Notes: a model not told the origin generated them from the letters alone. A DNA stretch of 64,000 nucleotides from Deltaproteobacteria bacterium (GCA_019309565.1 JAFDFZ010000012.1:1-64000), one strand, 5' to 3'. Counted from the first letter of the stretch, positions 1,204-48,944 are shown. Numbers and translations are program-made.

Positions 1204-2478
1204 ATGAAAGCAAAAGGTTTAAAAGCCATGGTCGTTCTGTTTACGACAATATTTCTGATGCTGGCTGGCGATCATGCGCTGGCCGAAAAACCCATTACCC
1301 TCGGATGCCCGCTGGCAACAGCCTTTCTCTATGGCTGGGATGCGGAAAGAGCGATCAAGCTGGCCGTTGAAGAGATCAATGCAGCCGGGGGGGTGAACGT
1401 GGGCGGAATAAAACGCCCGTTTAAGGTGGAGGTGATCGATACAAGGGATCTTGAACCGGGAGTTCCTGTAAGCGAGGCCTTGCTTGCCGTTGAGAAGCTT
1501 ATTCTGGAAAAAAATGCGGATTTCATTATCGGAGGGCCCATTCGATCCGAGGCTGCGCTGGCTGCCATGGATCTGCTGTCCAAGTACAAAAAAATATCGA
1601 TACTTACCACCGGGGTTCTGACGCCGAAATATCATGCGCGGGTTGCTGAAAATTACGAAAAGTATAAGTATCTTTTCAGAATTACAGGCGAGGCCAAATG
1701 GATGGTGGGCGGTGAGATTATTCCGTCTCTTGTGAAACTTGGCAAGAAATACAATCTCAACCGGCTGTTCATAATGATACAGGATGTGGCACATGCCAGG
1801 GCAGGGGGAGGAATCATCGCAAAGGTGATGGCAAAGAAGGGGTGGACCGTCATTGGAAAGCCGGAGATATATCCCACGGGCGCCACCGATTTTTCCATGG
1901 GACTGCTTAAGGCCAGAAGGGAAAAAGCCCAGGTGATTGTAATATGGATGGATATGCCGGAAACCTCGATACTCTTAAAGCAATGGCATGACTTGAAGGT
2001 ACCGGCTCTGCCGTTCGGTTCCATTATCGCTGCTGCCGAACAGCCCGGATTCTGGAAGGCAACCGAAGGAAAAGGTGAATACACTCTGGCAAATGTGGTA
2101 AATGCCGGAAATGCACCATCCAATGCAACGCCATGGACCATGAAGTTTGTAAAGGCATACGAAAAACGATGGGGCATCGAACCGGAGGGATATGGAACAT
2201 CAAGCAGCTACATGACCCCTTACGTGTTGAAGGATGCCATCGAGCGGGCAGGCTCGATCCAACCCGATGCGGTTGTTGAAGCACTTGAAAAGACCGATAT
2301 GATGGGAGTTTATGGTCGCATCAGGTTTGATCCCAAAAGCCATCAGGTAATACCCAGCCTGGATCCGGAAAAGGGGGTTGTGGGAACCATCTTTCAATGG
2401 CAGGCCGGAAAGCGGGTGGTTGTCTTCCCGGAGAAAATCGCAATGGGAGAAATTAAGTTGCCTCCCTGGATGAAGTAG
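1204..2478 (+). CDS. livK: ABC transporter periplasmic substrate-binding protein (branched-chain amino acid / carboxylate type)
   Basis: A 424-residue protein of the periplasmic binding-protein type 1 fold (Peripla_BP_6, LivK-like). A signal peptide with hydrophobic core and ALA-E cleavage site covers about residues 1-27, and the mature protein begins EKPITLGCPL. An AAGGAGGG ribosome-binding site lies just upstream of the ATG. It is the first gene of a five-gene importer operon with both permeases and both ATPases. Members of this family bind leucine/isoleucine/valine but also amides, urea, aromatic acids and other carboxylates, so the ligand is not fixed by sequence. The adjacent acyl-CoA ligase favours an organic acid as an alternative to amino acids. 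The symbol indicates family only. Confidence 0.85.
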   Translation: MKAKGLKAMVVLFTTIFLMLAGDHALAEKPITLGCPLATAFLYGWDAERAIKLAVEEINAAGGVNVGGIKRPFKVEVIDTRDLEPGVPVSEALLAVEKLILEKNADFIIGGPIRSEAALAAMDLLSKYKKISILTTGVLTPKYHARVAENYEKYKYLFRITGEAKWMVGGEIIPSLVKLGKKYNLNRLFIMIQDVAHARAGGGIIAKVMAKKGWTVIGKPEIYPTGATDFSMGLLKARREKAQVIVIWMDMPETSILLKQWHDLKVPALPFGSIIAAAEQPGFWKATEGKGEYTLANVVNAGNAPSNATPWTMKFVKAYEKRWGIEPEGYGTSSSYMTPYVLKDAIERAGSIQPDAVVEALEKTDMMGVYGRIRFDPKSHQVIPSLDPEKGVVGTIFQWQAGKRVVVFPEKIAMGEIKLPPWMK

Positions 2479-2522
2479 CATCTTATTTAAGCACAAGCCA
2501 AAAAATCACAACCGGCCGTATT

Positions 2523-2555
2523 GGAACATCCCTGCCCACGGAGCAGGGATGTTCC
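2523..2555 (+). promoter_or_regulatory. Intercistronic hairpin between binding-protein and permease genes
   Basis: A perfect 13-bp stem (GGAACATCCCTGC with its complement) closes a 7-nt loop, 45 nt after the livK-like stop and 47 nt before the livH-like start. No T-run follows, so it is not a classic intrinsic terminator. Such hairpins commonly stabilise the 3' end of the binding-protein message or partly terminate transcription, giving more binding protein than permease. That role is inferred from position. Confidence 0.6.
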
Positions 2556-2602
2556 ACGTGTCGACCGGTGGCTGAAGAATTTCCTGCAGATAGGCGCTTT
2601 TC

Positions 2603-3469
2603 ATGGAAATCATAATTTACGGTACCATCAATAGCATCAGTCTTGCGCTGATAGCACTGGGGTTTGCCCTGGTTTACGGAATCAGCCGGATTCCCAATTT
2701 CGCGCATGGAGCGCTTTATGTGGTAAGTGGTTTCATCACCTGGAGCCTGCTTCGGACACTGGATCTCAATTATCTATTAAGTATTCTGCTGTCTATGATC
2801 ATCACGGGAAGTATCGGTGCTCTCATCTACCAACTGGTGTTGATTAGAATCCGGGGAATGGCGATCTCCGAGATTATCGCCTCTTATGCGATCGGTTTGG
2901 CCATCTTAGAGGGTTTGCGCTGGAAAGGGTTTAAGGGGATGACCTACACATTGCCTGTATTTGTTCGGGGCAGTATATTTATTGCAGATGTCCCGGTAGA
3001 TCTTCACCGGGTACTGGTGGTTCTTATCGGATGTGCCGTTGTAATTTTTTTGTGGCTTTTTACCCATCACACCCGAATTGGGCTGGCCTTAAGGGGTGTG
3101 GCTCAAGATGAGCGCGCCGCCATGATGCTTGGAATCGATTCGGATCGAATGGCCGTTGTGGCAATGGCATTCGGCTCCATGCTTGCGGCGCTTGCAGCGG
3201 TTATGTTGCTTCCCCTTGGCAATATCATTGTCGAGTCAGGTTACAACGTGCTGGTGCAAGCGGTTGCGGTCTGTATTGTCGGTGGGCTGGGAAGCTGGGT
3301 GGGGGCTGTGCTTGCAGCGTTTCTGATCGGGTTTGCTCAGATTCTCACGGTTGTGTATCTGGGAACCCATTTTCAGATGGTGGTTGCATTGCTGGCCATT
3401 ATCATTACGTTGATCCTTAGACCATCAGGACTTTTTGGTCTTCAAAAAGAGCTGGAAGAAAGAGTTTGA
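2603..3469 (+). CDS. livH: Branched-chain amino acid-type ABC transporter permease LivH
   Basis: A 288-residue polytopic inner-membrane protein of the LivH family, with about eight hydrophobic segments. The LivH-typical stretch ALVYGISRIPNFAHGALY occurs near the N-terminus, and the conserved coupling region reads GLALRGVAQDERAAMMLGID. It forms the translocation channel with the next gene product. An AGGCG site lies 8 nt upstream of the ATG. The stop is followed after 3 nt by the start of the second permease, so the two are co-translated. Length is normal for the family. Confidence 0.9.
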   Translation: MEIIIYGTINSISLALIALGFALVYGISRIPNFAHGALYVVSGFITWSLLRTLDLNYLLSILLSMIITGSIGALIYQLVLIRIRGMAISEIIASYAIGLAILEGLRWKGFKGMTYTLPVFVRGSIFIADVPVDLHRVLVVLIGCAVVIFLWLFTHHTRIGLALRGVAQDERAAMMLGIDSDRMAVVAMAFGSMLAALAAVMLLPLGNIIVESGYNVLVQAVAVCIVGGLGSWVGAVLAAFLIGFAQILTVVYLGTHFQMVVALLAIIITLILRPSGLFGLQKELEERV

Positions 3470-3472
3470 TCA

Positions 3473-4486
3473 ATGCATGAGCAACCACGTCGCAAGGAAC
3501 GGCTGGATCGCGGCATAAAGGCTAGAACCGATGGGATCTATGCCCTTATGTCCTGGCGGGAGATCGCTTATCTTATAGCACCCCGCCTGGTGTTGATTGC
3601 TGGCATGCTGGCTTTACCGGTTTTCGCACCCGGCATGTACTGGCAGCGTGTTGTTTCCATTGTTTGCATATATGCATTGCTGGCATTGAGTTTCGACTTT
3701 CTGGCCCATTATGTCGGCCTGGTTTCTCTTGGAGGTGCCTTTTTTATCGGAACCGGCGGCTATCTTGCCGCGATTCTTAACACTGCGGGAGGAATTCCGC
3801 CCCTGTTTTCCATACTCATCAGCACGATACTGGGTGCTGCCTTCTGTACGTTGTTCCTGCTTCCCTGTTTGCCCCTGCGTGGTGTTTATTTTGCCATTGT
3901 AACGCTGATGTATCCGCTGTTGCTGGCAAGGGTATTCGAGGCGCTTGATATTCTGGGCGGTACAGACGGCATCGTTGGAATCGACAGCTTTAAAAACCGG
4001 TGGGTCGAGCAGTATTTCGTCATAATCGCACTGTTATTGTTGTTCTTCGGGCTGCGGCGGCTCGTTAACACTGACGTGGGACTGGTTTTAAGAGCGGTTA
4101 AAGACAACGATCAGGCCGTCAGGGCATCCGGAATGAGTGTCACGTTTTATAAGGCTCTTGCGGTTTTTATCGCTTCGGGCATGGGATGTTTGGGCGGTGC
4201 GTATCTGGTACACCTGTACATGTGGGCGGGTATTTCCATGTTTGCACTTGATTTCTCCATTCTTCCCATTGCCGCAACAGTCATCGGGGGAAGCGGCACT
4301 CTTACGGGGCCGGTGATCGGGGCGTTCATTCTGGTGCCTGTTTCCGAATTGTTGCGGGCATTTGGAACATTGCGAATCGTTTTTTATGCAGTCATTCTTA
4401 TTGCATTCATCATTCTTCGCAGCGAAGGCATCATGGTCTACGCCCAGCGCAAGTATCATCAGTTTGAAAAGTGGGTCAAGGTATGA
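3473..4486 (+). CDS. livM: Branched-chain amino acid-type ABC transporter permease LivM
   Basis: A 337-residue multi-spanning permease of the LivM family. About 35 cytoplasmic N-terminal residues rich in Arg/Lys precede the first membrane segment. It contains LivM signatures such as LALSFDFLAHYVGLVSLGG and the EAA-like coupling region LVLRAVKDNDQAVRASGMS. It pairs with LivH to form the membrane pore. Its stop codon overlaps the ATG of the first ATPase gene (ATGA at 4483-4486), indicating translational coupling. Confidence 0.9.
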   Translation: MHEQPRRKERLDRGIKARTDGIYALMSWREIAYLIAPRLVLIAGMLALPVFAPGMYWQRVVSIVCIYALLALSFDFLAHYVGLVSLGGAFFIGTGGYLAAILNTAGGIPPLFSILISTILGAAFCTLFLLPCLPLRGVYFAIVTLMYPLLLARVFEALDILGGTDGIVGIDSFKNRWVEQYFVIIALLLLFFGLRRLVNTDVGLVLRAVKDNDQAVRASGMSVTFYKALAVFIASGMGCLGGAYLVHLYMWAGISMFALDFSILPIAATVIGGSGTLTGPVIGAFILVPVSELLRAFGTLRIVFYAVILIAFIILRSEGIMVYAQRKYHQFEKWVKV

Positions 4487-5274
4487 ACACAGGCCATCCC
4501 ATCTTGCAGGTACAAGGTCTTTCCAGAGCCTTTGGAGGTATTTTGGCTTTAAACAATGTTACCTTCGATGTTCAAGAAGGTGAAATTCTCGGCATTATCG
4601 GTCCCAATGGTTCTGGGAAAACAACCCTTATCAACTGCATAACCGGATTTGTCAAAAAGACATCCGGACAGGTGTTTTTCAAAGGAAAGGATATCTCCGG
4701 CAAGCCTCCTCATAAAATAGCAGATATGGGAATTACCCGCACGTTTCAGATCATGCGCCCCTATTACAGCCTTCCAGCTTACAAAAACCTGGTCATTCCT
4801 CTTTTCTCCCCGCGGGCCAAACGCACCGGTGGCTGGAGAGGAGGCGGCAGGCTGGGCGACCGGAACACGGTGGGAATCGACATTTTGGAGGAAATGGGAT
4901 TTGAGCGGGATTCTTTCGTTCCTTACAAGATGGCCTCGAACCTGCCGACCGGGTACTTGAAGCGTCTGGAGCTGGCACGGTGCCTTGCGCTTAAACCGGA
5001 GATCATTTTATGCGACGAAGTATTCTCGGGCCTTAGCATGAGCGAGATCGCCAGCATGGTACCGCTTATCGAACGGTTGCAGATGGATGGGATTACTCTC
5101 ATTATGATCGAACATCGGCTGCGGGAACTTTTTCTGGTGACCGATCGCGTCATGGTGCTGAATTTTGGAGAAAAGCTTATGGAGGGCAGTGCCGAAGCCG
5201 TAATGACGGATGATAAAGTAAAGGAGGCATACTTCGGATCTGAAAAAATCGAGGAGATCTTGGGGGATGCTTGA
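4483..5274 (+). CDS. livG: Branched-chain amino acid-type ABC transporter ATP-binding protein LivG
   Basis: A cytoplasmic ATPase of the importer, about 263 residues from the ATG at 4483, chosen because it overlaps the upstream stop as ATGA. An in-frame GTG at 4471 is the alternative. Walker A reads GPNGSGKTT, Walker B is IILCDEVFSG and the switch His is in MIEHRL. The ABC signature is degenerate: where the family has LSGGQ or LPYGDQRRLE, this protein has LPTGYLKRLELAR. A stretch rich in Gly/Arg lies in the helical domain (near 4810-4860). The C-terminus matches the LivG/UrtD class. It probably forms a heterodimer with LivF. Confidence 0.85.
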   Translation: MNTGHPILQVQGLSRAFGGILALNNVTFDVQEGEILGIIGPNGSGKTTLINCITGFVKKTSGQVFFKGKDISGKPPHKIADMGITRTFQIMRPYYSLPAYKNLVIPLFSPRAKRTGGWRGGGRLGDRNTVGIDILEEMGFERDSFVPYKMASNLPTGYLKRLELARCLALKPEIILCDEVFSGLSMSEIASMVPLIERLQMDGITLIMIEHRLRELFLVTDRVMVLNFGEKLMEGSAEAVMTDDKVKEAYFGSEKIEEILGDA

Positions 5275-6013
5275 AGCAGATGGCCTGATGGTATTTTATG
5301 AAAATATGCTTGCGCTTAACAACGTGAGCATACGATGTGAGCGCCACCAGATCGTGGGTGTTTTTGGTGCAAACAGTGCCGGAAAATCAACCCTCATGTA
5401 TACGCTTTCCGGTATCGTGAAAGATATCCAGAAAAAAGAGGAAATGTCCGGTGGAGAGCGGATAAGCGTGTTGGGAAGCATACGTTATATGGGCATGGAC
5501 ATCATGCAGGACAAAGCAAGCCAGCGCGCAAGAAAAGGGATCGTGCTTTGCCCGGAACGGCGCAGGATCTTTAGCGAAAGCAGTGTGTTGGAAAATTTGC
5601 GCATCGGCGGATATATGGCTTCCAGCTCCCAGGCAAGGGATATGCTGGCATATGTTTTCAAAATCTTTCCGGCACTGGAACCCATTAAAAAGCGCATCGG
5701 CGGGTTTTTAAGCGGGGGAGAACAACAAATGCTTGCCATCGGCCGTGCATTGATGGCTCAACCCAAGCTGCTGTTGCTGGATGAACCCTTGCTGGGTCTA
5801 AGCCCCCTGGTGCAGGCAACGCTGGTGAAAGCGATAAAAGAGATTCGAGACGAAAAAGGGATTTCTATTATTGTAACAGAGCAATATGCTCGGCCCATTT
5901 TTCCAATTATCGATTATGGGTTTATTCTAGAAAATGGGGCAACGGTACTGGAAGGAACGCGTGAGGAGTTGATGAACAACCCGGATGTGCGATCGGCCTA
6001 TTTCGGCATATGA
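5267..6013 (+). CDS. livF: Branched-chain amino acid-type ABC transporter ATP-binding protein LivF
   Basis: The second ATPase of the importer, 248 residues. Its ATG lies 8 nt inside the upstream gene, another coupled start. Walker A reads GANSAGKST (Ser in place of the usual Gly after Asn), the signature is LSGGEQQMLAIGRALM, and Walker B is LLLLDEPLLGLSP. Compared with usual LivF, an extra segment of about 20 residues (around 5432-5500, including MSGGERISVLGS) separates Walker A from the Q-loop region. The C-terminus GTREELMNNPDVRSAYFG is typical. It completes the KHMGF gene set. Confidence 0.88.
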   Translation: MLEADGLMVFYENMLALNNVSIRCERHQIVGVFGANSAGKSTLMYTLSGIVKDIQKKEEMSGGERISVLGSIRYMGMDIMQDKASQRARKGIVLCPERRRIFSESSVLENLRIGGYMASSSQARDMLAYVFKIFPALEPIKKRIGGFLSGGEQQMLAIGRALMAQPKLLLLDEPLLGLSPLVQATLVKAIKEIRDEKGISIIVTEQYARPIFPIIDYGFILENGATVLEGTREELMNNPDVRSAYFGI

Positions 6014-6051
6014 AGGTTGCATGATTTAAGAGAACCTCAACGGTAGCTGGT

Positions 6052-7713
6052 ATGAGTATCAAAACTGATTTGGAACATGAATTGACCTTTACCCGGTTTG
6101 ATCTGATGAGCGAAAAATATCCAGATCGAACCGCAATCATATATTTGGGAAAACGGTTTACTTTCTCTCATTTAAAAGATTTAAGCGAGCGATTTGCCGC
6201 TTCTTTGATCGACATGGGAATTCAAAAAGGCGACCGTGTTTTGCTCTACATCCCCAACAGCCCGCAGTGGGTCATCTCATTTCTTGGCATACAAAAAATC
6301 GGAGCCGTCCTGGTTCCCGTATCCCCCATTTACACGGCATATGAACTTGAATACATGATTAAGGATTCCGGAGCGGAAACCGTCATTTGCCAGGACACCA
6401 ATTTTTGCTATGCCCAGGAAGTGTTTGCCGCCACAGGGCTGAAACGGATCATAGTAACCAATCTTGCGGATCTGTTGCCGTTCTGGAAACGGTGTGTAGG
6501 TTTTCTTTTTGACAAGATCCCTTCCGGTAAGTGCACAAAAAAGGGCAATATTTTTCCGTTTCGCTCTCTATTACATCGCGATCCCTTGCGCTTGCCGGTG
6601 CCGCTGGACCCCTTAAAGGATCTTTCCTACATTCTTTATACCGGCGGCACAACCGGTTTTCCAAAGGGAGTTCCAGGCAATCACGCGGGGATGACATCTT
6701 ATGTAAACGATGTTACCGAAGATGTGGCAGGCAGCCATCTCAAAGAAGGCGAGGATGTCTATATAGCCATAAATCCCCTGTTTCATATCATGGCGCTGGG
6801 TCTTTTCATGTCTTTGGGATTGAACAAGGGCAACTGCACCGTGCTGATGCCGGTACCTCAGGTGGATGCCATACTGGAAAGCATTCAGCGCTACAGGGTC
6901 CGCTGGTTTCTGGGGGTGCCGGCGCTTTACCGAATGATTCTGGAAAACGACAGGCTTGACCGGTACGATCTTAATTCGTTAACGTACTGTTTTTCCGGAG
7001 GAGACGTTCTGCCGCTTGAGGTTTTCAAGCGGTGGAAAAACCGGTTTAAGATTCCCATCTACCAGGTCTATGGTTCTACCGAAGCCGGGCATGTAACCTA
7101 CAGCCGGCTCGGTAAGGAGCCTAATCCGGAATCCATCGGACGGCCTTTAAAAAGCAGGGAGTGCATTGTGGTAAACCCGGCTACGCTTCGGCCTGTCGGC
7201 ACCGAAGAGACGGGGGAGTTGCTGGTTACATCACCATATACGCTGAAGCAGTACTGGAAAAAGCCTCAGGAAACAGAGCGATCCTATGTTACGCTTAATG
7301 GAAAACTGTACTACCGCATGGGCGATTTTGTCCGCCAGGACGAAAATGGAGAACTGGTGTATGTGGAACGATCCGCGGACATCATCAAGCATAAGGGATA
7401 TCGTGTGGCCGCCTCTGAGGTGGAGGCGGTACTTCAGGATCATCCCACCGTAATCGGGGCCTGTGTTGTGGGGATTCCGGATCCAAGAGCGGGTGAGCGG
7501 ATTAAAGCCATTGTGGTTTTAAAAGAAGATGCCAGAGGAGTAACTGGAGGGGAGCTGATCAAATGGTGTCGTGAGCGCCTTGCTCCTTACAAGGTACCAG
7601 GTTATATCGAGTTTCGAGATATGCTTCCCAAATCTAAAGTCGGAAAACTGCTCCGCCGGGAGATTCGAGATGAAGAACGCCGGCGCATTCAAAAAGAAAG
7701 GAAGGCTATCTAA
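6052..7713 (+). CDS. AMP-forming acyl-CoA synthetase (fatty/aromatic acid-CoA ligase family)
   Basis: A 553-residue ANL-superfamily enzyme that activates a carboxylate with ATP and CoA. The P-loop motif reads ILYTGGTTGFPKGV, the A5-like motif is YQVYGSTEAGHV, the hinge/adenylate motif is YYRMGDFVRQDENG, and the catalytic lysine is expected near the C-terminus in PKSKVGKLLRRE. A cytoplasmic enzyme of normal length. It starts 38 nt after the last transporter gene on the same strand and is probably the final gene of that operon. This suggests import followed by CoA activation of the same or a related acid. The sequence alone does not distinguish medium/long-chain fatty acid from aromatic acid ligase. 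Confidence 0.85.
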   Translation: MSIKTDLEHELTFTRFDLMSEKYPDRTAIIYLGKRFTFSHLKDLSERFAASLIDMGIQKGDRVLLYIPNSPQWVISFLGIQKIGAVLVPVSPIYTAYELEYMIKDSGAETVICQDTNFCYAQEVFAATGLKRIIVTNLADLLPFWKRCVGFLFDKIPSGKCTKKGNIFPFRSLLHRDPLRLPVPLDPLKDLSYILYTGGTTGFPKGVPGNHAGMTSYVNDVTEDVAGSHLKEGEDVYIAINPLFHIMALGLFMSLGLNKGNCTVLMPVPQVDAILESIQRYRVRWFLGVPALYRMILENDRLDRYDLNSLTYCFSGGDVLPLEVFKRWKNRFKIPIYQVYGSTEAGHVTYSRLGKEPNPESIGRPLKSRECIVVNPATLRPVGTEETGELLVTSPYTLKQYWKKPQETERSYVTLNGKLYYRMGDFVRQDENGELVYVERSADIIKHKGYRVAASEVEAVLQDHPTVIGACVVGIPDPRAGERIKAIVVLKEDARGVTGGELIKWCRERLAPYKVPGYIEFRDMLPKSKVGKLLRREIRDEERRRIQKERKAI

Positions 7714-9999: not shown

Positions 10000-11493
10000 C
10001 TAGATTTTAAGATGCTCCCCTATGAACTGGATCTTGGGGTTCGGGGAAAAAAGGTGGGGATTGAAGATATTGCAGGGATCATATTTCTGTTTTAGCTGGC
10101 TTAATTCCTCTCTTCTTTGTGCATCAGACAGTTTGAACAATTCTAAGCCCAGACCATGTTCTTTGCGTTTGATGGTACAATATTCTTTGTTGTTAAGGAT
10201 CTCTTCGGTCAGTTTCTGGTTTAACTCCCATGCTTTCAGGTACTCTTCCCTGGTAACCAGCGCTTGAGGCCTGTAATGGATGACGATACCGTCGATATAC
10301 TGGTGTCCGATGGGGCGTCCAGGAAGGTTTCCTTCGCAAAGTTCAAATATCTTCCTTAAGACCATTCCCAGCTTTGAAGGCTTGGTTACATAAATATCCT
10401 CAAAACCCGGAATTGCCACTCTGCCCGTGGATTTACCGGTGGCAGCCTTTCTCACTCCAAGCATGATATTCATGTTTTCATTCGAAATGCTTCTGTATCT
10501 TACGCCCTGGTATTTTTTGACGATGCTTTCAAGATGACGCATCCCTTTTTTTTCTCCCTGGTACAAGAGCAGCATCTTTCGGCTGCCCTCTTTGACCCGG
10601 AGCAAATCGGCCAGTTCCTTGTTTTCCCATAAAGCGTCATCTTCGTTTAAAAGCAAAGGATCAATGAACAGAAACTCGGCATTTAAAAAGGAGCAGTTTT
10701 TCTGCGTATCTTCGATAAGCGTCCCCATTTTTTCTCCGATTTCAGATATGTCATCCGATTCATAAGACAGCACCACGTTTTCCGTTTCAGAAGGTTTCAG
10801 AATGGGAACGATGAGCACACCGATTTCCAGTATCACTCCCAGAGTGCCCTGAAATCCACCCATCTTTTCAATTTCTGCTCTATCCTTGATTTCTATGGTT
10901 TTAACTCCCTGTTCATCGGCCACCACCATCTTAAGATATCCCACGATATCCTTGAATGTTCCGTATTTAGGGGTTCCGTTTCCCCCGGCGTTGGTGGCGA
11001 AATTACCGGCAATGCTCGACCAGCCCGAGGAGGGCACAACGGCTGTATGGTAATTCATTTTTTTCAGGTACCTGTCCAGCTCATCGGTTGAAAGACCACC
11101 TCCGACGATGGCGTATAACCGCCTGTCGTCGTTTTCTCTGATTTCCGTTGGTTTAAGCTCTGTATCAACAATCGTTACTTTCGGCTTTCTTTGCCGCACG
11201 CCCCACTGATCGCAAACCCCAAGTCGATCCACTACCATCAGTATGGCGTGCCCATCGGCCAGTGCCGCTCCTGCCGTGCTGGAGCCCATGGCGCGAGGTG
11301 TGACGGCCAGCCGGTGCTCTAATGCATAGGTGATGATTTTTTTTACCTCTGCCTCGTTTTTGGGGAACACAACGGCAAATGGATCGCCCAGCGTAAGGAA
11401 AGAGGCATCGCTGCAGTAATGCCGGTCATGCTTGTCGGTAAACAGAATATTTTCTTTGCGACAATATTCCAGGAATTGTTTTTTTAAGTTCAT
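10000..11493 (-). CDS. FAD-linked oxidase, GlcD / D-lactate dehydrogenase type
   Basis: A 497-residue flavoprotein of the VAO/PCMH fold with a FAD-linked oxidase C-terminal domain. FAD-binding stretches are RAMGSSTAGAALADG and GWSSIAGNFATNAGGNG. The C-terminal EHGLG corresponds to the EHGIG active-site His motif of GlcD/D-2-hydroxyacid dehydrogenases, and YDPCNIFNPHLF is the usual ending. It would oxidise a 2-hydroxy acid such as D-lactate, glycolate or 2-hydroxyglutarate to the oxo acid. It is the last gene of the Hdr operon, 11 nt after the Fe-S partner, so electrons probably go to Hdr proteins rather than to quinone. The substrate is unknown. Confidence 0.85.
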   Translation of the reverse strand: MNLKKQFLEYCRKENILFTDKHDRHYCSDASFLTLGDPFAVVFPKNEAEVKKIITYALEHRLAVTPRAMGSSTAGAALADGHAILMVVDRLGVCDQWGVRQRKPKVTIVDTELKPTEIRENDDRRLYAIVGGGLSTDELDRYLKKMNYHTAVVPSSGWSSIAGNFATNAGGNGTPKYGTFKDIVGYLKMVVADEQGVKTIEIKDRAEIEKMGGFQGTLGVILEIGVLIVPILKPSETENVVLSYESDDISEIGEKMGTLIEDTQKNCSFLNAEFLFIDPLLLNEDDALWENKELADLLRVKEGSRKMLLLYQGEKKGMRHLESIVKKYQGVRYRSISNENMNIMLGVRKAATGKSTGRVAIPGFEDIYVTKPSKLGMVLRKIFELCEGNLPGRPIGHQYIDGIVIHYRPQALVTREEYLKAWELNQKLTEEILNNKEYCTIKRKEHGLGLELFKLSDAQRREELSQLKQKYDPCNIFNPHLFSPNPKIQFIGEHLKI

Positions 11494-11504
11494 AAATATT
11501 CTTT

Positions 11505-12620
11505 CTAGAGTGCTTTAGCCATGATTTCCGTAATATCTGTAATTTTCAACGAGGGCAGCTTACCGATGGGATTGCCGTCCAGGTAACAGTTGAAATGGAT
11601 CCGGCACTTGGGACATGCGGTGACCACATGCCCTGCCCCGGTTTCCGCTGCTTCTTCCAGCCGATCGTTCTGCAAAAACTTGATGTATTTGTCACAATTT
11701 GAGAAACCACCCACCCCGCAGCAGCGTGAGTTTTCCCGGACAAATTCCATCTCCGTAAAGTCGAGTGCATCGATATTTTTTAGAATGTATCGGGGCTCAT
11801 CGCAAACGTGACTGATTCTGCCCAATCTGCAGGGATCGTGATAGGTCACCTTCTCCTCTACCGGTGTATTCAGTTTCAGAGAGGAGTTCCGAAGCGCCTC
11901 TGCGACAAACTCCGTTATGTGTTGCACCTGCCATTCTACGGCCTCGATGGCAGGGTATTCTTCTTTAAGGGTCACCAGGCATTCGGCACAGCTTGTGATG
12001 ATTTTCTTGATTCCAAGCTTCTTGAAAAGCTTCAGATTCGAGGCTGCCAGTTTTTGAAAGGCATCGGTTTCTCCATTCCACAACAAATCGTAACCACAGC
12101 ATTTTTCGTCATTGGAAACCACCGGCTTGATGCCGGCTGCGTTCAATATTTTAAGCGTGTTGTGTGCCGTGCTCATGCTGCTTGTATGGGGGAAAACATA
12201 ATCGAATATAGGCAGGCAGCCTACAAAATAGAGTATCTCTCCCCGGTCTGCAAAGGTGCCGGAATTTAAATGAACAAGCCGGTTCTGGGAAACACTCAAC
12301 TGTGCCTGAAACTGCTGAATGGTGCGAAGAATAACACCGTGCTTGCATTCATCCATGCGACCCTTTTGGCGCGCCTTCTGCCGCGCTTTCCTGACGGTCT
12401 CGATGAATTTTGTCCTCGAAGGACAAGCTTCTTTGCATTGAAAACATGTAAGACAGCGAAAAAGATCCCTGTCTTCTGTAAATTCTTCGTCCCCTTCAAG
12501 GAGCAATTGCAACGTGTAACCCCTGGGTGAGTAAGTGGGATCCACCCGATTCAAGGGACAGACAAGTTGACATTTGCTGCACTGTATGCATTCAAGTTCA
12601 CTTGCGTTCGGTTTTTCCAT
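11505..12620 (-). CDS. Fe-S oxidoreductase with CCG domains (GlcF / HdrD-like)
   Basis: 371 residues. Two N-terminal 4Fe-4S motifs are CIQCSKCQLVCP and CLTCFQCKEACP. Two C-terminal cysteine-rich CCG domains follow, with CCGYDLLWNGE and CCGVGGFSNCDKY, the signature shared by HdrB, HdrD, GlcF and LutA. It is the expected electron-transfer partner of the adjacent FAD oxidase, passing hydride-derived electrons as single electrons through its clusters. It lies 141 nt downstream of mvhD on the same strand. A catalytic noncubane cluster as in HdrB is possible because both CCG motifs are intact. Cytoplasmic; no membrane segment is seen. Confidence 0.85.
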   Translation of the reverse strand: MEKPNASELECIQCSKCQLVCPLNRVDPTYSPRGYTLQLLLEGDEEFTEDRDLFRCLTCFQCKEACPSRTKFIETVRKARQKARQKGRMDECKHGVILRTIQQFQAQLSVSQNRLVHLNSGTFADRGEILYFVGCLPIFDYVFPHTSSMSTAHNTLKILNAAGIKPVVSNDEKCCGYDLLWNGETDAFQKLAASNLKLFKKLGIKKIITSCAECLVTLKEEYPAIEAVEWQVQHITEFVAEALRNSSLKLNTPVEEKVTYHDPCRLGRISHVCDEPRYILKNIDALDFTEMEFVRENSRCCGVGGFSNCDKYIKFLQNDRLEEAAETGAGHVVTACPKCRIHFNCYLDGNPIGKLPSLKITDITEIMAKAL

Positions 12621-12761
12621 CGCTTGGAAACCTATTTCTCAAGTTTTTTACACCCCTGGTCCTTTGAAAAACTTTATATTCAGGCGGCGAATGAAATCTC
12701 TAAAGGAAAAATACATTAATACAACCTAAGAGTTTCTGTCGTTATTTGTAATCAAAGAAAA

Positions 12762-13190
12762 TCAGCAAGCGGCGGCGTTTACGGCTTCAGACAGGGGGCT
12801 CGGTCCAAGGGCCTTTAGTTCTTCGATAAATTCCGTGACTACTTTCACAAACAATGGGCCCTCGCCTCCAGATACCTCTTCGATCCTCAACCTCTCAGGT
12901 TCGATGCCAAGCAGGTGCAAGATGTTTTTTAATCGTTCCACCACAAGAACAGCGTTTTTGTTGCCGGATATATAGTGACAGTCGCCTATATGACAGCCGA
13001 TGAGCATCACTCCGTCGAATCCTTTGCGAAAGGCTTCCAGCACCAGCCTCATATCCACCCGGCCAAGGCACATGACCCTTGCCAGCTTAATGTTCGCCGG
13101 ATACTGCAGCTTGCTCATGCCGGCCTGGTCCGCACCTGCATAACCACACCAGTTGCAGGCAAAACCAAGCACATCGGGCTCAAAGCTCAT
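12762..13190 (-). CDS. mvhD: MvhD-type [2Fe-2S] electron-transfer subunit (hydrogenase iron-sulfur subunit family)
   Basis: A 142-residue protein of the MvhD/DUF family that links electron-input modules to HdrA. Conserved features are the Cys-containing blocks FACNWCGYAGAD, RVMCLGRVD and GCHIGDCHYISGN, which provide the five cysteines of the [2Fe-2S] site. The ATG lies just after a GGAGG overlapping the 3' end of hdrA, and the genes are separated by 1 nt, so they are tightly coupled. In methanogens MvhD feeds electrons from hydrogenase to HdrA. Here no hydrogenase is present, and the GlcD/GlcF pair or NAD(P)H is the likely donor. Confidence 0.9.
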   Translation of the reverse strand: MSFEPDVLGFACNWCGYAGADQAGMSKLQYPANIKLARVMCLGRVDMRLVLEAFRKGFDGVMLIGCHIGDCHYISGNKNAVLVVERLKNILHLLGIEPERLRIEEVSGGEGPLFVKVVTEFIEELKALGPSPLSEAVNAAAC

Positions 13191-13191
13191 T

Positions 13192-16100
13192 TCATGCCTC
13201 CAGTTTTAAGCCATCTATCAATGCCTCTATCTGCTCGTCGGTTGCCGAGCAGACGCTTGCGGCACCGGTTGGGCATATAACAGCACACTTGCCGCAACCC
13301 TCGCACACAGCAGGCTCCACGCGGGCACACAGAGTGGTGGCATCGATTTTTATTGCATCGAATTCACAGTTCTCTTCACATCTTCCACACGCACGGCATA
13401 GGGTTTCATCAACGGTGGCAATCATCGGATTCAACCAGATATAACCATCCCCCAGGTATGAAACCACGCTGGCGGCCGCGCTGCCCGCCTGGGCGATGGT
13501 ATCGGGTATGTCCTTTGGTCCCTGGGCAGCGCCGCAGACAAAAACGTTTTTAACCATGGTGTCCGTGGGACGTATTTTTTGATGAAACTCTTTGATAAAA
13601 CCGCTTTCATCCCTGGCGATGTTCAGCTTTGTCATGAGCTGTGAATTTTCAGCAGGCTCCGTGGCGCTGGATAGAACCACCAGGTCTGCTTCGATTTCAA
13701 GCAGCGTGGAGGTATTTGAATCCTCCACCGTTACCACCAGCTTTCCGGTTTCTTTGTCCTTAAGTACGCTGCCGGGCAGTCCCTTGATAAATTTCACCCC
13801 TGTGCCCTTGACCGCTTCAAAATACTCCTCATACCCTTTTCCAAAAGCCCTGATGTCAATGTAACAGATGTATATCTTGGCCTTCGGGTTGCAATATTTT
13901 TTTACCAGCCCGGCATGTTTCAAAGCAGCCATACAGCAAACCCTGGAGCAATACCGGTGTCCTGCCTCAACTCCCTGTTCATCGGAGCGAGACCCTACAC
14001 ACTGGATCATAACGATTGTATCGGCAGGCTCCTTGTTGCTCATCCTCAGTACGGCCCCGTCAGTGGGCCCCATCGGATCCAGCATCCTGGCAAACTGAAG
14101 CTGGGTTACAACGTCCGGATATTTTCCATATCCATAATGAAGACCGGAAGGGTCGAATTCTTTATATCCCGTGGCTACGATCACCGCGCCTACTTCAATA
14201 TTCTCCGTGGTGTCCTTCTGAAAGTGATCAATCGCATCGGCCTCGCATGCAAGCTCACAGACGCGACAATCCGAACAATCACCGCACTGGATACATCTAT
14301 TGGCCTCAGCCACCGCCATTTCTTCGGAGAATCCGCTTTCAACCTCGGTAAAATCTTTTCTCTCAGTTAAAGGTCTTTCAGGCATTTGGGCCCTGGGGGC
14401 GGATTCGTATAATCCCTTTTTTGCCTTGATGATCTCTTGCCTGTCATATTCGGCTGACCGGTAAGGTTGCGCATTTTCCTGAAAGCTCATACCGTTCAAA
14501 TAACAGTCGATCTCATGAGCCGCCAGCCTTCCTTTGGCTATGCACTGGATGACCGTGGAAGGCCCAGTGGTAATATCCCCACCGGCAAAAACCTTTTCAA
14601 GTCCGGTAAAGGTGCTGTCTCCTTTGGTTTCTATTAAGCCCTTACGGTTTATTCCCAGCTTATCGGTGCCCTCCACAAACCCCAGGTCCGGTTCCTGGCC
14701 GATGGCTGCAATCAGCATATCCAGTTCCATTCGGGTCTCGGTGCCCTCGAGAGGCACCGGCCGCCGCCTGCCGCTGCTGTCGGGCTCGCCCAGTTTCATG
14801 CGGATATATTCCAGGTGAGTTAAGCGGTTTTCCGATTCTGACAGGATTCTAACCGGTGCCGCCAGGAAGTGAAATTTTACACCTTCCCGTTCCGCTGCAT
14901 CGATTTCAGATTCGATTGCTGGCATCTCCTTGCGGGTTCTTCGATAAATAATGAAAACCTCGTGCGCTCCCAGTCGGATCAGGGTTCTGGCACAGTCTAT
15001 GGCCGTATTCCCCCCGCCGATAACGGCACACCTGCGACCAACCGGAACCGATTCTCCAAGGTTGATCCTGGATAAAAAATCAATACCGGTGTAACAGCCC
15101 GCAAGATCCTGGCCTTCCACTCCAAGTGAAACGTCCTTCCATGCACCGAGGGCAAGGAAGACCGCATCGTATTTTCCGGATAAAAGGAAGTTTAGATCAA
15201 TATCTCTTCCCAGCCTTGTGTTTGCCCGTACACTTACCCCAAGATCCAGGATGCCCTGAATATCCCACTGTAAGATCTTTTTGGGAAGACGGTATTCGGG
15301 AATTCCGTACCGCAACATTCCGCCAAGCTCCGGCATCGCCTCGAATATGGTAACCTCATAGCCAAGGCGGCGGAGAAAATAGGCACAGCTCAGCCCTGCT
15401 GGACCGCTTCCGATAACCGCAACGTGTTTTTTGTTTTCGGCATTCTCGTCTGTTTTCCGAACAGCCGCAGGCCTAATACCATGCTGTCTGGCATAATCGG
15501 CAAGGAAACGCTTGATGCCCCGGATTGCGATAGGATCGTCGATTTCATTTCGGGTGCACTCGCTCTCGCAGGCATGATCACAGACCCGGCCGCAGACAGA
15601 GGGCAGGGGATTATCCCGCAAGACCACGTCAAAGGCCTCTTTAAACCGTTTTTTTGCCACCAGGGCAAGGTATCCCTGGGCTGACTGATTAACCGCACAG
15701 GCCGCCTTACAGGGCGACATCTGTCTTTTCTGTATGGTATACAGATTCGGCACTGCAGCGGCAAAAGGCCTGTACACGGCTGTTTTGGTGGAGAACAATC
15801 CCTGATCATACTCGTTAAATACATCTACCGGGCAGACCTCGGCACATTTACCGCAGCCGGTGCACTTTTCTTCATCCACATACCGCGCTTTTTTAAGGAT
15901 CTTAAGCCGCATGCCCTCAGGCGTTTTCTCAACATCCTGCACTTCCGAATATGTAAACAGTTTGATATTCTTGTTTTTTGCCACTTCATCCAGTTTGGGA
16001 GACAGGGTGCACATGGCACAATCATCGGTGGGAAAGGTCTTGACCAGTTTGGCCATGTTGCCGCCGATGGTTGGTTCCTTTTCGATAAGGTAAACCTGAT

Positions 16101-16602
16101 GCCCCATCTTTGCCAGCAAAAGCGATGCATGAACACCGGCAATGCCTCCACCGATGACGGCCACATCCCTGTTGACCCGGACCTTCTCTGTTTTCAAGGG
16201 CTTTAAGAGACGAACTTTATCGATGGCGGCCTTAAGCAGTTTGATTCCCTTTTGAGTGGCTTTTTCCGGTTCAAAATGGTGGGGATAGGAACACTGCTCC
16301 CGCAGGTTGACCATCTCAAGCAGATAGGGATTGAGCCCGCTTTCCTTAAGACATTCCCGGTACAGCTCCTCGTATTGCTTCGGCGTACAGCAGCCTATGA
16401 CTACTGAGTCCAGCTTTTGTTCTCTGATGGCCTTTTGGATGACGCCCTGTCCCTCGCTTGAGCAGGTAAAGGACTGATAATCTGCAAAAACGACATCCGG
16501 CTGCTGCAAGGCGAAATCTTTCAGGCGATCAAGATCGACCACCTCGGAAATGTTGCCCCCGCAACGGCATAAGAAAACCCCAATCTTCTTTCTGTTTCCC
16601 AT
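13192..16602 (-). CDS. hdrA: Large HdrA-like flavoprotein with inserted NfnB/GltD-type NAD(P)H module (HdrL-like)
   Basis: 1136 residues. The N-terminal HdrA domain has CRCGG at about 12-16 and FAD motif IGGGIAG at about 150-156. A ferredoxin motif CTGCGKCAEVCP lies at about 247-258. Inserted at roughly 285-765 is a complete GltD/NfnB-like module: Cys motifs C298/C302 and C337/C341, FAD motif IGSGPAG (about 397-403), nucleotide motif IGGGNTA (about 528-534) followed by YRRTRKEMPA, and AGGDITTGPSTV. A Cys-rich segment CIQCGDCSDCRVC (770-782) precedes the second half of HdrA. Two C-terminal ferredoxin motifs lie at about 1069-1080 and 1100-1110. Canonical HdrA is about 650 residues. HdrA is the bifurcating flavin subunit, and the insertion should add NAD(P)H binding. 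No good ribosome-binding site is seen. Confidence 0.9.
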   Translation of the reverse strand: MGNRKKIGVFLCRCGGNISEVVDLDRLKDFALQQPDVVFADYQSFTCSSEGQGVIQKAIREQKLDSVVIGCCTPKQYEELYRECLKESGLNPYLLEMVNLREQCSYPHHFEPEKATQKGIKLLKAAIDKVRLLKPLKTEKVRVNRDVAVIGGGIAGVHASLLLAKMGHQVYLIEKEPTIGGNMAKLVKTFPTDDCAMCTLSPKLDEVAKNKNIKLFTYSEVQDVEKTPEGMRLKILKKARYVDEEKCTGCGKCAEVCPVDVFNEYDQGLFSTKTAVYRPFAAAVPNLYTIQKRQMSPCKAACAVNQSAQGYLALVAKKRFKEAFDVVLRDNPLPSVCGRVCDHACESECTRNEIDDPIAIRGIKRFLADYARQHGIRPAAVRKTDENAENKKHVAVIGSGPAGLSCAYFLRRLGYEVTIFEAMPELGGMLRYGIPEYRLPKKILQWDIQGILDLGVSVRANTRLGRDIDLNFLLSGKYDAVFLALGAWKDVSLGVEGQDLAGCYTGIDFLSRINLGESVPVGRRCAVIGGGNTAIDCARTLIRLGAHEVFIIYRRTRKEMPAIESEIDAAEREGVKFHFLAAPVRILSESENRLTHLEYIRMKLGEPDSSGRRRPVPLEGTETRMELDMLIAAIGQEPDLGFVEGTDKLGINRKGLIETKGDSTFTGLEKVFAGGDITTGPSTVIQCIAKGRLAAHEIDCYLNGMSFQENAQPYRSAEYDRQEIIKAKKGLYESAPRAQMPERPLTERKDFTEVESGFSEEMAVAEANRCIQCGDCSDCRVCELACEADAIDHFQKDTTENIEVGAVIVATGYKEFDPSGLHYGYGKYPDVVTQLQFARMLDPMGPTDGAVLRMSNKEPADTIVMIQCVGSRSDEQGVEAGHRYCSRVCCMAALKHAGLVKKYCNPKAKIYICYIDIRAFGKGYEEYFEAVKGTGVKFIKGLPGSVLKDKETGKLVVTVEDSNTSTLLEIEADLVVLSSATEPAENSQLMTKLNIARDESGFIKEFHQKIRPTDTMVKNVFVCGAAQGPKDIPDTIAQAGSAAASVVSYLGDGYIWLNPMIATVDETLCRACGRCEENCEFDAIKIDATTLCARVEPAVCEGCGKCAVICPTGAASVCSATDEQIEALIDGLKLEA

Positions 16603-16765
16603 TTTTTATCAAGCGTTATTTTTCTTTGTGCTTCTATTTTTCTGCCGAAGCCTGGCTTCCACTTCGGCTTTTGTTTTATATTGTTATTCAAAAATTTTAT
16701 TTGACTTGGAACAATTCACCATTTTACGAGATAATACTATATAATTGGATGCCAAACTTGAGCAG

Positions 16766-17623
16766 TTAACCCCGCGGAATGTACTTTTCCATGCCAACCA
16801 TGTTCTTATCCACACCCAATTTCTTTGGTGCAATCCCCAATGCCAGCCCCAGCATTTGAGCCAAATGCAAAACCGGGATTTGCAGCCGCCGAGATCCGGA
16901 TGCCGGTTTTTGATAGCCGTCAAGGCTGAGATGACACAGGGTACAGGGGGTGACCAGCATGTCGGCCTCAGCCTTTCTTGCATGAGACAGGCATCTTTCG
17001 GTCATTTTCAACGCTGTGGCTTGATCGTTTAGCAGAATGTGAAAACCGCAGCAGTTGTACTTATCCTCGTAATCGGCCTCTTTGGCGCCGCAAATTTCGA
17101 TCAATCGACTCAAGAAATCGGGTTCTTTATCGTCGCCGATAACCTCAGAGGGCCGAATGATATGGCAACCGTAAAATGGTGCTATTCTCACGTTGCTGAT
17201 AGGAACCTTAATCAATTCTTTCAACCTGTCAAGCCCGATATCATCACGCAGAAGCCACAGCAGATGTTTTATGTTAACCTCACCCCTGTATTCGAGGCCG
17301 ATCTTCTTTAAGTCGGCGTTTATCTGCCGGTACAGCAATTGGTTTTCCGCAAGGGTCTTTTTGGCTTTCAGCATTGTCAGCAGGCAGGTATTGCAGATTA
17401 CCACGATCTGCCGCTGCTGCTTTTCTGCCAAGGCGAAATTTCTGGCATTAAGCGTGTATTCAAATTCAGGATCTTCTTCTTCAACAACACCCGCGCCACA
17501 GCATGAGTATGCGTTGTTTTCGGTAATATCCATTCCCAAAAACTTAAGAACACTTCTGGTAGCAAGCAGCGCTTCCTTGGCTGTAGCTTCACCGGCGCAT
17601 CCAGGGTAAAGGGAGTATTTCAT
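16766..17623 (-). CDS. hdrB: Heterodisulfide reductase subunit B-like protein
   Basis: 285 residues with two CCG domains: the first with YPGC near the N-terminus and SCCGAGV, the second with FYGCHIIRP and NCCGFHIL. These supply ligands for two noncubane [4Fe-4S] clusters, the site of disulfide (or disulfide-like) reduction in HdrB. The start overlaps the hdrC stop by ATGA. A gap of about 160 nt separates it from hdrA. There is no coenzyme M/B in bacteria, so the physiological acceptor or donor is unknown; DsrC-type trisulfides are one proposal for related proteins. Confidence 0.9.
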   Translation of the reverse strand: MKYSLYPGCAGEATAKEALLATRSVLKFLGMDITENNAYSCCGAGVVEEEDPEFEYTLNARNFALAEKQQRQIVVICNTCLLTMLKAKKTLAENQLLYRQINADLKKIGLEYRGEVNIKHLLWLLRDDIGLDRLKELIKVPISNVRIAPFYGCHIIRPSEVIGDDKEPDFLSRLIEICGAKEADYEDKYNCCGFHILLNDQATALKMTERCLSHARKAEADMLVTPCTLCHLSLDGYQKPASGSRRLQIPVLHLAQMLGLALGIAPKKLGVDKNMVGMEKYIPRG

Positions 17624-18183
17624 CGTCGCTTCGCTCTTCTGTTTTCGATCATTTGATTCAGTGCTTTAAGCTCGTTTATTCGTTGAATCCTTTTGGGGAG
17701 CAAAGGAGGCAGCTTCCCCTTAAGCAGCATTCTAATCGATTGGGGAATCTGCGAGACAACACCCAACCGCAATGTATGAAGGGGAAGCATCATCTCGTTG
17801 ATCTTGCCCGTGCTTAAAATGCTCTTCTTAAAAAACAGCGCATGCCTCACGCCCCTGTAATTAACGATCCCTTCCTTCAGGGCTATGTGTCTTAGAGCAA
17901 TGATGATATCGCCGGGTTTGATTCCTTTCGGGCATTTTTCCAGACAACTGTTGCATCTGGCACAAATCCAGATCATTTCCGATTTCAGCACTTCGTCCCG
18001 CAAACCCAGAACCGCTTTTTGAATCAGTTTCCTTGGGTTGTACTCAGAGTTGACCGAAAACACCTGGCAGGTCGACGAGCAGGTGCCACAGCTCAAACAC
18101 TTGGTAATCCCCTGTCCTTTCGGTTGCCTGGATATCTCTTTATAAAAATAGTAATCTATTCCATGGCTCTTAACCGTTTTCAT
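17620..18183 (-). CDS. hdrC: Heterodisulfide reductase subunit C-like protein
   Basis: About 187 residues from the ATG at 18183, chosen because AAGGTGG lies 6 nt upstream; a GTG nine bases earlier is the alternative. Two 4Fe-4S binding motifs, CLSCGTCSSTCQ and CARCNSCLEKCPKG, carry electrons between HdrA and HdrB. The C-terminal half is basic with a short hydrophobic patch but no clear membrane helix. It is the first gene of the operon hdrC-hdrB-hdrA-mvhD-glcF-like-glcD-like. Confidence 0.88.
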   Translation of the reverse strand: MKTVKSHGIDYYFYKEISRQPKGQGITKCLSCGTCSSTCQVFSVNSEYNPRKLIQKAVLGLRDEVLKSEMIWICARCNSCLEKCPKGIKPGDIIIALRHIALKEGIVNYRGVRHALFFKKSILSTGKINEMMLPLHTLRLGVVSQIPQSIRMLLKGKLPPLLPKRIQRINELKALNQMIENRRAKRR

Positions 18184-18253
18184 CCTATCCACCTTTTATA
18201 AGTCGATTTGCTGACGGCTGACTCTATGCGCCGCGGATGAAATGATAAGATGA

Positions 18254-18423: not shown

Positions 18424-20208
18424 TCAATCTGCTGTTTTCTCCAAAACAGGCCGCTCCTGCATCCTTGCAAGTCTGAGCACTTTATGGGCCGTTGTTTCTC
18501 CCAGGCCGGAAATGGTGATTTTCTCGGGTTTTGAAATGATCCGGTTTTTTACCAGGCGATAGGTTTCACCATCGATAAGCATGCATTCATCGCTGGCATG
18601 GCTTTCGAGTTTTGAGGCTAAATTGACGGAATTTCCCAAATATGTGAACTCGGTTTTGATATAATTTCCAAGCAACATGGCATAGATCTCACCCGTGCTT
18701 AAACCGATACGCACGCGGATGTTCCTGTCAACTCCATAGGCCTTTTTCAATTTTCGGTTTTTATGCTTAAGGGCGCGATGAATATCCATGCCTGATTTGA
18801 CGGCGCGAAACGTTTTATCCGATGATAGGGTATGGCCATGTTCAAAGATGGCCATAAATCCATCTCCAAGAAACTTATCGATGTATCCGTCGTACTGGTA
18901 GATAATGAGATACATTCGATCGATTAACTCATCAATCATGCCAAGGGTCAAGCTCTCATCAGAGCGTCTCATCATTCTGCTGAAATCTACAATATCGACG
19001 AACAGGGTGGAGGCAAACAGCTTTGATTTCACTCTGGATGCTCTAAACGGACTGATTCTTCTACCAAAACGGTTTTTTACAAATGCGGCATCTTCATAAA
19101 CGAGATCCGAGGTGAGCAGATCTCTGGCCTTGTACTTATCAATCAACCGGGCAGCATGAAAAGCCCGTATTATGATATCCTTTATGCCGAGCACCATTCC
19201 TATCTTGGCCGATTCCCTGAAGTGGGCATAGGCCTTGGTTTCTTCATTGATATCGTAATAGACAGCTCCCAGCTCATATTGTGCATCCGCCATTAGCTGG
19301 TTGTTTTCGAGTTGATATTGCTTTGCAAGCCTGATGAGTCCATTAAGTTTCCTTTCTGCCTCTTCGAAATCAAGAATCTTCCGGTAAATTTTTGCACACA
19401 GAAGTCCAATCTGGATGCTTTCTTTGAGCATCTTTTTTTGCTGAAAGACCTGTTCAAGGTTCAGGGCGGTTTCCAGGGAGCTGTCCACGCGGTTGATCAG
19501 GAACTGGAACTCGGCTTTTTCCAAACGGGACAACAACTGGCCTTTTTCATTATTACAGTGGCTGAAGATGCGAATGGCCTCATTTAGATGTTCCAGGATT
19601 TGATGATCCACAAGCCCGACCAGGCGGTTTGTTCGGCTATAATTGACCAATGCGTAGGCATAAATGCTGGACAAGGATTTATCAGAAGGGTTGGCAATGT
19701 GATTTTGATAGCACACTTCTTTTTCCAGCGCTGTATATTGTTTGGCCTTGTGGTGATTGCCAAGAGCTCGATTCACCCTGCCCAGCAGCGAGTATATCTC
19801 TCCTAGATACTTTGTGAATGCGGTCTCTGAACTGGCTAAAGCCAGTGCTTCTTTCAAATAAGATTCTGCATCAGAATAATTCCACTGGGCCTTGTGCACA
19901 TATCCCAAGGAGATATAGACTTTTATTTTCCACCGCTTGAATACTTGTTCTGTCAGCCCCCCTAAGACATCAATTGCTTCATCCAGCAGTTGCTCAGCCC
20001 GAGGAAACAACGATATTTTCTGTAGAAAAAGGCTCTTATGCCATTTGATGATGGCCGCTAAGGGAGGAGATTTCATGAATGGGGCCGTTTTATGTTCAAA
20101 CCGAACCAGGAAATCGAGAATGTGTTCTTTTGTATCCGCAAGATCGAAAGAGTGGAATATATCTCTTATTTCATTGATATTTCTTTCAGTTTGTGAGGTA
20201 TCAGGCAT
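18424..20208 (-). CDS. TPR-repeat class III adenylate/guanylate cyclase
   Basis: 594 residues, predicted cytoplasmic. Residues from about 35 to 380 form tetratricopeptide-like helical repeats, a sensor or scaffold region. The last 200 residues are a class III nucleotidyl cyclase catalytic domain: LFVDIVDFSRMM gives the first metal Asp, DKFLGDGFMAIF the second, and RIGLSTGEI the beta-strand region. The block that usually reads VNxAARLE is VNLASKLES here, with Lys in place of the transition-state Arg. This may lower activity or change specificity. It makes cAMP or, less probably, cGMP. It is upstream of and co-directional with the hdr operon but separated by 240 nt. Confidence 0.85.
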   Translation of the reverse strand: MPDTSQTERNINEIRDIFHSFDLADTKEHILDFLVRFEHKTAPFMKSPPLAAIIKWHKSLFLQKISLFPRAEQLLDEAIDVLGGLTEQVFKRWKIKVYISLGYVHKAQWNYSDAESYLKEALALASSETAFTKYLGEIYSLLGRVNRALGNHHKAKQYTALEKEVCYQNHIANPSDKSLSSIYAYALVNYSRTNRLVGLVDHQILEHLNEAIRIFSHCNNEKGQLLSRLEKAEFQFLINRVDSSLETALNLEQVFQQKKMLKESIQIGLLCAKIYRKILDFEEAERKLNGLIRLAKQYQLENNQLMADAQYELGAVYYDINEETKAYAHFRESAKIGMVLGIKDIIIRAFHAARLIDKYKARDLLTSDLVYEDAAFVKNRFGRRISPFRASRVKSKLFASTLFVDIVDFSRMMRRSDESLTLGMIDELIDRMYLIIYQYDGYIDKFLGDGFMAIFEHGHTLSSDKTFRAVKSGMDIHRALKHKNRKLKKAYGVDRNIRVRIGLSTGEIYAMLLGNYIKTEFTYLGNSVNLASKLESHASDECMLIDGETYRLVKNRIISKPEKITISGLGETTAHKVLRLARMQERPVLEKTAD

Positions 20209-48830: not shown

Positions 48831-48944
48831 TTCAAAAAATCAAGGTTTACTTTTTCCATCATTATCGTCTATTATTTTATATGACACATCGTGGGGTTTT
48901 TATTAAAAATCCTTGAACACATACTCATTTACAGGGAAGTGACC

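Follow-up and report, generated by a model that had tools for sequence, protein, structure and literature searches.

The stretch of DNA analysed here (the window, 64,000 nucleotides from a Deltaproteobacteria bacterium; GCA_019309565.1, JAFDFZ010000012.1:1-64000) contains, on its minus strand between positions 18192 and 10000, six consecutive open reading frames (ORFs) which ORF calls and family searches identify as hdrC, hdrB, hdrL, mvhD, a gene for a CCG-domain iron–sulfur protein and a gene for a GlcD-like flavoprotein. All six had been listed on one strand by the initial annotation of this DNA, and all are present. The hdrC gene (17620..18183) encodes a 4Fe-4S dicluster protein (Fer4_8/Fer4_17; 87 bits to the HdrC model); its ORF opens at a GTG at 18192, and the alternative ATG at 18183, which is preceded by AAAGGTGG, is probably the real start. 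HdrB (16766..17623) has two complete CCG motifs, matches solved HdrB structures with 173-174 bits and scores alike on the SdhE and HdrB models (215 and 208 bits). HdrL (13192..16602) is an HdrA of 1136 residues, MvhD (12762..13190) is the [2Fe-2S] adaptor (FlpD, 167 bits), the CCG protein (11505..12620) combines two 4Fe-4S and two CCG domains, and the GlcD-like protein (10000..11493; 497 residues) is a divergent member of the FAD_binding_4 family. The cofactor motifs of HdrA, HdrB, HdrC, MvhD and the CCG protein are intact. HdrA, HdrB, HdrC and MvhD are encoded together, as expected of a bifurcating HdrABC–MvhD complex, and both gene content and gene order lie far outside what chance would give.

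In the junctions, as read from the sequence, hdrC and hdrB overlap by 4 nt (ATGA), as had been described, whereas the overlap also attributed to hdrL and mvhD is not there, these genes being 1 nt apart; 11 nt separate the CCG and GlcD-like genes. Two junctions are wide, 163 nt between hdrB and hdrL and 141 nt between mvhD and the CCG gene, in agreement with the gaps of 11, 141 and about 160 nt given initially. The operon has ordinary codon usage; Rfam gave no match within it, and scans of the operon for promoters and terminators did no better on it than on shuffled sequences. As annotated, no hydrogenase, formate dehydrogenase (FdhA) or FloxAB gene lies inside the cluster, and an Etf-like gene is likewise missing among its ORFs. 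The Hdr core with its NAD(P)H module is encoded with the CCG and flavin proteins, with no other obvious input module, as had been proposed. The host is a sulfate reducer, with dsrA and a DsrC-family gene in its genome.

HdrL consists of an HdrA core (residues 5-293 and 775-1132 match solved methanogen HdrA, E about 1e-173) with a GltD/NfnB-like domain inserted in its ferredoxin domain, which is the architecture of type III HdrA. Residues 296-704 match NfnB/GltD structures, and alignment to these places the insert at about residues 295-705 (14488..15720, minus strand). Alignment to 5odc and 9sfi indicates that the cysteine ligands of the N-terminal, ferredoxin-domain and C-terminal clusters are kept together with the FAD motif, the motifs reading CTGCGKCAEVCP, CSDCRVCELAC, CRACGRCEENC and CEGCGKCAVIC. 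The insert noticed initially is therefore real, but it is not new: HdrA proteins with an NfnB/GltD insert are known as HdrL of Desulfobacterium autotrophicum, whose gene adjoins mvhD as it does here (PMC2702500), as HdrA9-11 in ANME-1 (PMC9012536) and as type III HdrA (PMC12054007), all with partner genes other than those of the window. In the order to which the host belongs type III HdrA is common, with dozens of full-length matches at 39-45% identity. The HdrL of the window sits on a long branch and lacks close kin in a comparison with 59 others, and a second copy in the same genome (C192) groups with ordinary HdrLs. Its second Rossmann motif is GGGNTA (15004..15021, minus strand), followed by YRRTR; this is a GxGxxA motif, which occurs in nearly all of 79 HdrL relatives, and not the NAD-type GxGxxG reported for archaeal type III HdrA. 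By the published rule that takes GxGxxA as the mark of NADP(H) (PMC12054007), the insert is predicted to use NADP(H); the distinction is one of cofactor, not of architecture. Elsewhere in the genome (L115, C136:8000-26000) another NfnB–HdrA protein is encoded with MvhD and a CCG protein; its neighbours include a GAF histidine kinase, and an HdrA there occupies two ORFs, a division that may be due to a selenocysteine TGA.

The CCG protein had been called GlcF-like, a name that has to be given up, since it obtains only 56 bits with the GlcF model (curated cut-off 333 bits) as compared with 186 with TfrB; the scores with LdhH (137) and GlpC (116) lie between, all four being below curated cut-offs. 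It is thus of the HdrD/TfrB type. Its closest relatives in the order are 38-43% identical. Other Hdr genes are present at 16 of the 17 loci examined for these relatives, and GlcD is encoded at none of the 17; in three (L107, L108, L111) the order is hdrC-hdrB-hdrA-CCG. In a tree it is set apart (96/96) from the GlcF-type CCG proteins that the genome also encodes, three in all, with the reservations that it is a long branch there and that the rows were picked by similarity to it. Judged from these comparisons, the CCG protein is kin to proteins of Hdr clusters. A label of BamD for its relatives was dropped, the paralogous cluster of the same genome (C136) having a GAF histidine kinase and no Bam marker.

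The genes around type III HdrA were compared in 79 neighbourhoods. MvhD is encoded downstream in 56 of them, an FdhB-like protein in 59 and Vhu-like subunits in 4; HdrB is immediately upstream in 10. The order hdrC-hdrB-hdrL-mvhD is a recurring one in relatives, where the module that comes after mvhD varies, and on the neighbourhoods compared the window fills this slot in a manner unseen elsewhere among the relatives examined, a CCG gene and a GlcD gene following mvhD in 0 of the 79. One apparent HdrL...GlcD-GlcE-GlcF cluster (G171, L324) spans a scaffold gap of 100 N and was discarded. At two of the Vhu-type loci (L230 in G111, L312 in G530) the genes after HdrL–MvhD encode VhuG-like and VhuA-like subunits together with an aldehyde ferredoxin oxidoreductase of the tungsten type; at L230 hdrC-hdrB stands upstream, and the VhuA-like protein, which has no Pfam hit, may be a remnant linking the oxidoreductase to Hdr.

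Orthologues of the GlcD-like protein were sought with a threshold of 1e-40 in the order (194 genomes) and the class (390 genomes), without any being found, and at 1e-8 in 395 genomes of the phylum, where the best match (33% identity, 68 bits) was to generic GlcD only; the three samples overlap. A scan of genome contigs with the single sequence returned no relative, and an alignment-based scan returned, among the matches listed, generic GlcD only and no GlcD paired with HdrA (0 of 80 loci); the SdhABE-like genes near a GlcD at one locus (L175) are unrelated. By these searches, the protein is an orphan among the several hundred related genomes covered, though it may have relatives in other phyla. 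Contamination as the cause is ruled out for the contig, which is native to the organism, the RpoD encoded there being 75% identical to that of order relatives. Ordinary GlcD-like genes are present elsewhere in the genome (C190, about 25% identical to the protein of the window), which thus has candidates for a lactate or glycolate enzyme besides this one.

As to what this flavoprotein might act on, its FAD_binding_4 domain (PF01565) is well recognized (81 bits), and alignment indicates that the invariant Arg348, His397, Gly402 and Glu-His-Gly 445-447 are retained. An AlphaFold model (pLDDT 76, pTM 0.78) superposes on D-lactate dehydrogenases (9qit) and on LctD of Ldh–EtfAB with TM scores of 0.70-0.72. 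The metal loop is altered: GHQYIDGIVIH (10276..10308, minus strand) replaces GHxGDGNxH, with the first His and the Asp-Gly kept, the loop longer, the Asn lost and the second His shifted. This alteration, together with the weak similarity to any GlcD, would suit a flavoprotein of the VAO/PCMH superfamily acting on some other substrate than a 2-hydroxy acid. Indeed, AGPS, cytokinin oxidase and eugenol oxidase match the fold at E-values only slightly worse than those of the D-lactate dehydrogenases, which nevertheless rank first, and such a use of the superfamily is under consideration for proposed benzene-activating flavoproteins, in which FAD-oxidases pair with an HdrC-like iron–sulfur protein (PMC13101534, PMC13416013). 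The latter, compared here by description only, are however heterotrimers with two flavin subunits, as opposed to one in the window, and the conservation of the first His, the Asp-Gly, Arg348 and the Glu-His-Gly of the GlcD site also speaks against this reading. We regard a different substrate class as unlikely.

Both wide gaps hold something that the earlier reading of the operon had missed, namely ends of a ~300-bp family of miniature inverted-repeat transposable elements (MITEs) of the host genome, collinear and on one strand, which bracket hdrL-mvhD. With a profile built from full copies and a survey covering 481 kb of the host genome (some overlap within this total), nhmmer places profile positions 233-299 in the hdrB–hdrL gap (16687..16762, plus strand; E 4e-4; z 10.1 for its own end type and 3.7 for the other) and positions 1-91 in the mvhD–CCG gap (12638..12729, plus strand; E 1e-9; z 8.8 and 4.7, respectively). 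One terminal repeat begins 3 nt past the hdrB stop, and 17 nt lie between the other and the start codon of the CCG gene; without the element hdrB and the CCG gene would be only ~20 nt apart. A full copy at 54074-54374 has perfect 16-nt terminal repeats (CTCAAGTTTCGCACCC), and the surveyed sequence contains more copies and fragments (L335, L344, L329, L346, L348, L345) as well as short versions of ~99 bp; several full copies have ~6-nt AT-rich target duplications (e.g. TTAACA). The 163-nt gap folds better than shuffled sequences (long-range stem, z -2.6), which comparison with other parts of the genome ascribes to the MITE end that it holds. A hairpin, GCCGAAG...CTTCGGC, occupies the hdrB–hdrL leader at the inner edge of this end (16603-16686) and could affect hdrL expression.

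From the type, strand and order of these ends, hdrL-mvhD looks like the content of one decayed MITE-derived element of 4125 bp, the ends of which are ~20% decayed. Weak support for a separate origin comes from the GC content of hdrL (0.515) and mvhD (0.529) as compared with 0.46-0.48 in the four flanking genes. Alternatively, two independent MITE-like insertions, since decayed, may have entered what had long been a single six-gene operon, a history that we consider somewhat unlikely. Solo ends are indeed present at other places in the genome, some 4-6 of them in the 481 kb, and the outer flanks, TAACTG and AAATAG, agree at 3 of 6 positions and thus form no clear 6-nt target duplication; the occurrence of hdrC-hdrB-hdrL-mvhD in relatives would also fit. 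Against this, the two ends differ in type, lie on one strand and follow each other in the order 1-91 ... 233-299 as in a single element, and the chance of such a pair in the sampled sequence is, by a rough estimate, a few per cent.

The bracketing of hdrL-mvhD could also mean that the two genes are a MITE-inserted passenger serving other Hdr subunits, while the CCG and GlcD-like proteins, with or without HdrCB, form a stand-alone dehydrogenase that delivers electrons to quinone or a soluble carrier. The tight four-gene set hdrC-hdrB-CCG-glcD that would remain if the element were taken away and the GC contrast just mentioned both favour this possibility. Nevertheless, hdrC-hdrB-hdrL-mvhD is a recurrent order, the ~20% decay of the MITE ends implies long coexistence, and there is no strongly hydrophobic segment by which a membrane anchor could be recognized. 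We find a stand-alone dehydrogenase improbable.

We tentatively prefer, at somewhat less than even confidence, the view that the six genes together specify a single soluble Hdr complex, NADP(H)-linked and of modular build, with a new flavoprotein module, probably assembled in steps. Gene content, motifs, MITE ends and the lack of conservation are observed, and complex formation, substrate, electron path and assembly history are what we infer here. HdrC–HdrB–HdrL–MvhD would constitute the core, and the CCG and GlcD-like proteins would fill the slot taken by MetV and MetF in Moorella and by FdhB-like or Vhu-like subunits in relatives. Electrons would pass reversibly between the substrate, the FAD of the GlcD-like protein, the clusters of the CCG protein, the [2Fe-2S] cluster of MvhD and the FAD of HdrA, where they would be divided between, or brought together from, the NADP(H) site of the insert and the HdrC–HdrB branch, which would serve a disulfide (DsrC, for example), and/or ferredoxin. 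A D-2-hydroxy acid or its oxo form would be the likeliest substrate, in either direction of the reaction; such a substrate and bifurcation are both plausible. A lactate-like donor has a potential of about -190 mV, so that reduction of NADP+ would be uphill and would have to draw on reduced ferredoxin as co-donor or on a high-potential disulfide as second acceptor. The former would amount to confurcation, as in Ldh–EtfAB (PMC9232219). As for stepwise assembly, hdrL-mvhD would have come in a MITE-derived element into an otherwise tight hdrC-hdrB-CCG-glcD set.

Several points weigh against such a complex. The six-gene order was not found in any relative examined, and the initial annotation had named in advance the absence of a conserved order as grounds for abandoning its proposal; the lack of conservation may reflect rare assembly rather than absence of function. 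The initial interpretation is reasonable and is upheld in part. The 141-nt gap before the CCG gene could hold a separate promoter, despite which the kinship of the CCG protein with Hdr-cluster proteins supports the operon. The GlcD-like protein does not keep the canonical HxGDGNxH loop, and its FAD-oxidase_C domain scores 15.3-16.9 bits, below the Pfam cut-off of 21.2. Moreover, the alignment supplied to AlphaFold consisted of ordinary GlcD proteins, which favours a D-lactate dehydrogenase fold. Finally, HdrB and the CCG protein may be the partners of the GlcD-like protein without HdrL.

Directly upstream of hdrC and on the same strand, 18424-20208 encodes a protein that combines tetratricopeptide repeats (TPR) with an adenylate cyclase domain of class III, the latter matched by the Pycsar-cyclase models of PADLOC. 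The plus-strand genes at 1204-7713, which are not co-directional with the Hdr operon, apparently encode an ABC transporter of the branched-chain/aromatic-acid type (LivKHMGF-like, by eye), accompanied by an AMP-dependent acyl-CoA ligase-like gene. At 48891-50687 there is, again by eye, an apparent YcaO-type domain followed by TPR repeats.

A close known parallel to the proposed complex is MetFV–HdrABC–MvhD of Moorella thermoacetica (PMC5861303, PMC6085437), which is NAD(P)H-linked and likewise comprises six genes, for HdrC, HdrB, an HdrA with an extra flavin, MvhD, a partner subunit and a terminal flavoprotein, with consecutive accessions in the order metF-metV-mvhD-hdrA-hdrB-hdrC (PMC6085437). 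The terminal pair here is, however, CCG and GlcD-like rather than MetV and MetF, and where HdrL carries an NfnB insert, the HdrA of Moorella is described as a fusion of two HdrA units (PMC9012536). Ldh–EtfAB (LctBCD) of Acetobacterium woodii (PMC9232219, PDB 7qh2) also joins a GlcD-type FAD dehydrogenase to a bifurcating or confurcating partner, but this partner is EtfAB and not Hdr/NfnB, and the flavoproteins share ~18% identity in the fold alignment. Glycolate oxidase GlcDEF has a GlcD fold and a CCG iron–sulfur protein in common with the operon, in which, by contrast, GlcE is absent, the CCG protein is HdrD/TfrB-like and both are encoded with Hdr genes. FlxABCD–HdrABC (cited in PMC4759654) resembles the proposed complex in its Hdr-linked NAD(P)H bifurcation in sulfate reducers and possible link to DsrC; here the NAD(P)H site is fused into HdrA and Flx proteins are lacking. 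Mobile insertion cassettes and cargo-bearing MITEs, such as the qnrS2 element (PMC5444012), similarly hold genes between MITE-type ends without a transposase; the putative cargo in the window (hdrL-mvhD) would be metabolic.

Accordingly, the parts are known and it is their combination that appears new. Exchange of the module that docks on MvhD is regarded as the way in which Hdr complexes acquire new substrates, and the operon would add to the known modules one of the hydroxy-acid flavoprotein type, together with a route for it in a sulfate reducer that is linked to NADP(H). The MITE ends suggest a concrete and testable way in which a bifurcating core could enter an existing operon. It is tempting to go further and to see here a new bifurcating or confurcating dehydrogenase, in which an HdrD-type CCG protein and MvhD link an orphan flavoprotein of the GlcD family to an HdrA that binds NADP(H), a MITE-derived element having delivered hdrL-mvhD into an hdrC-hdrB-CCG-glcD operon. 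We hold this full scenario to be decidedly unlikely; if it were true, the bifurcating core itself would have travelled as mobile cargo.

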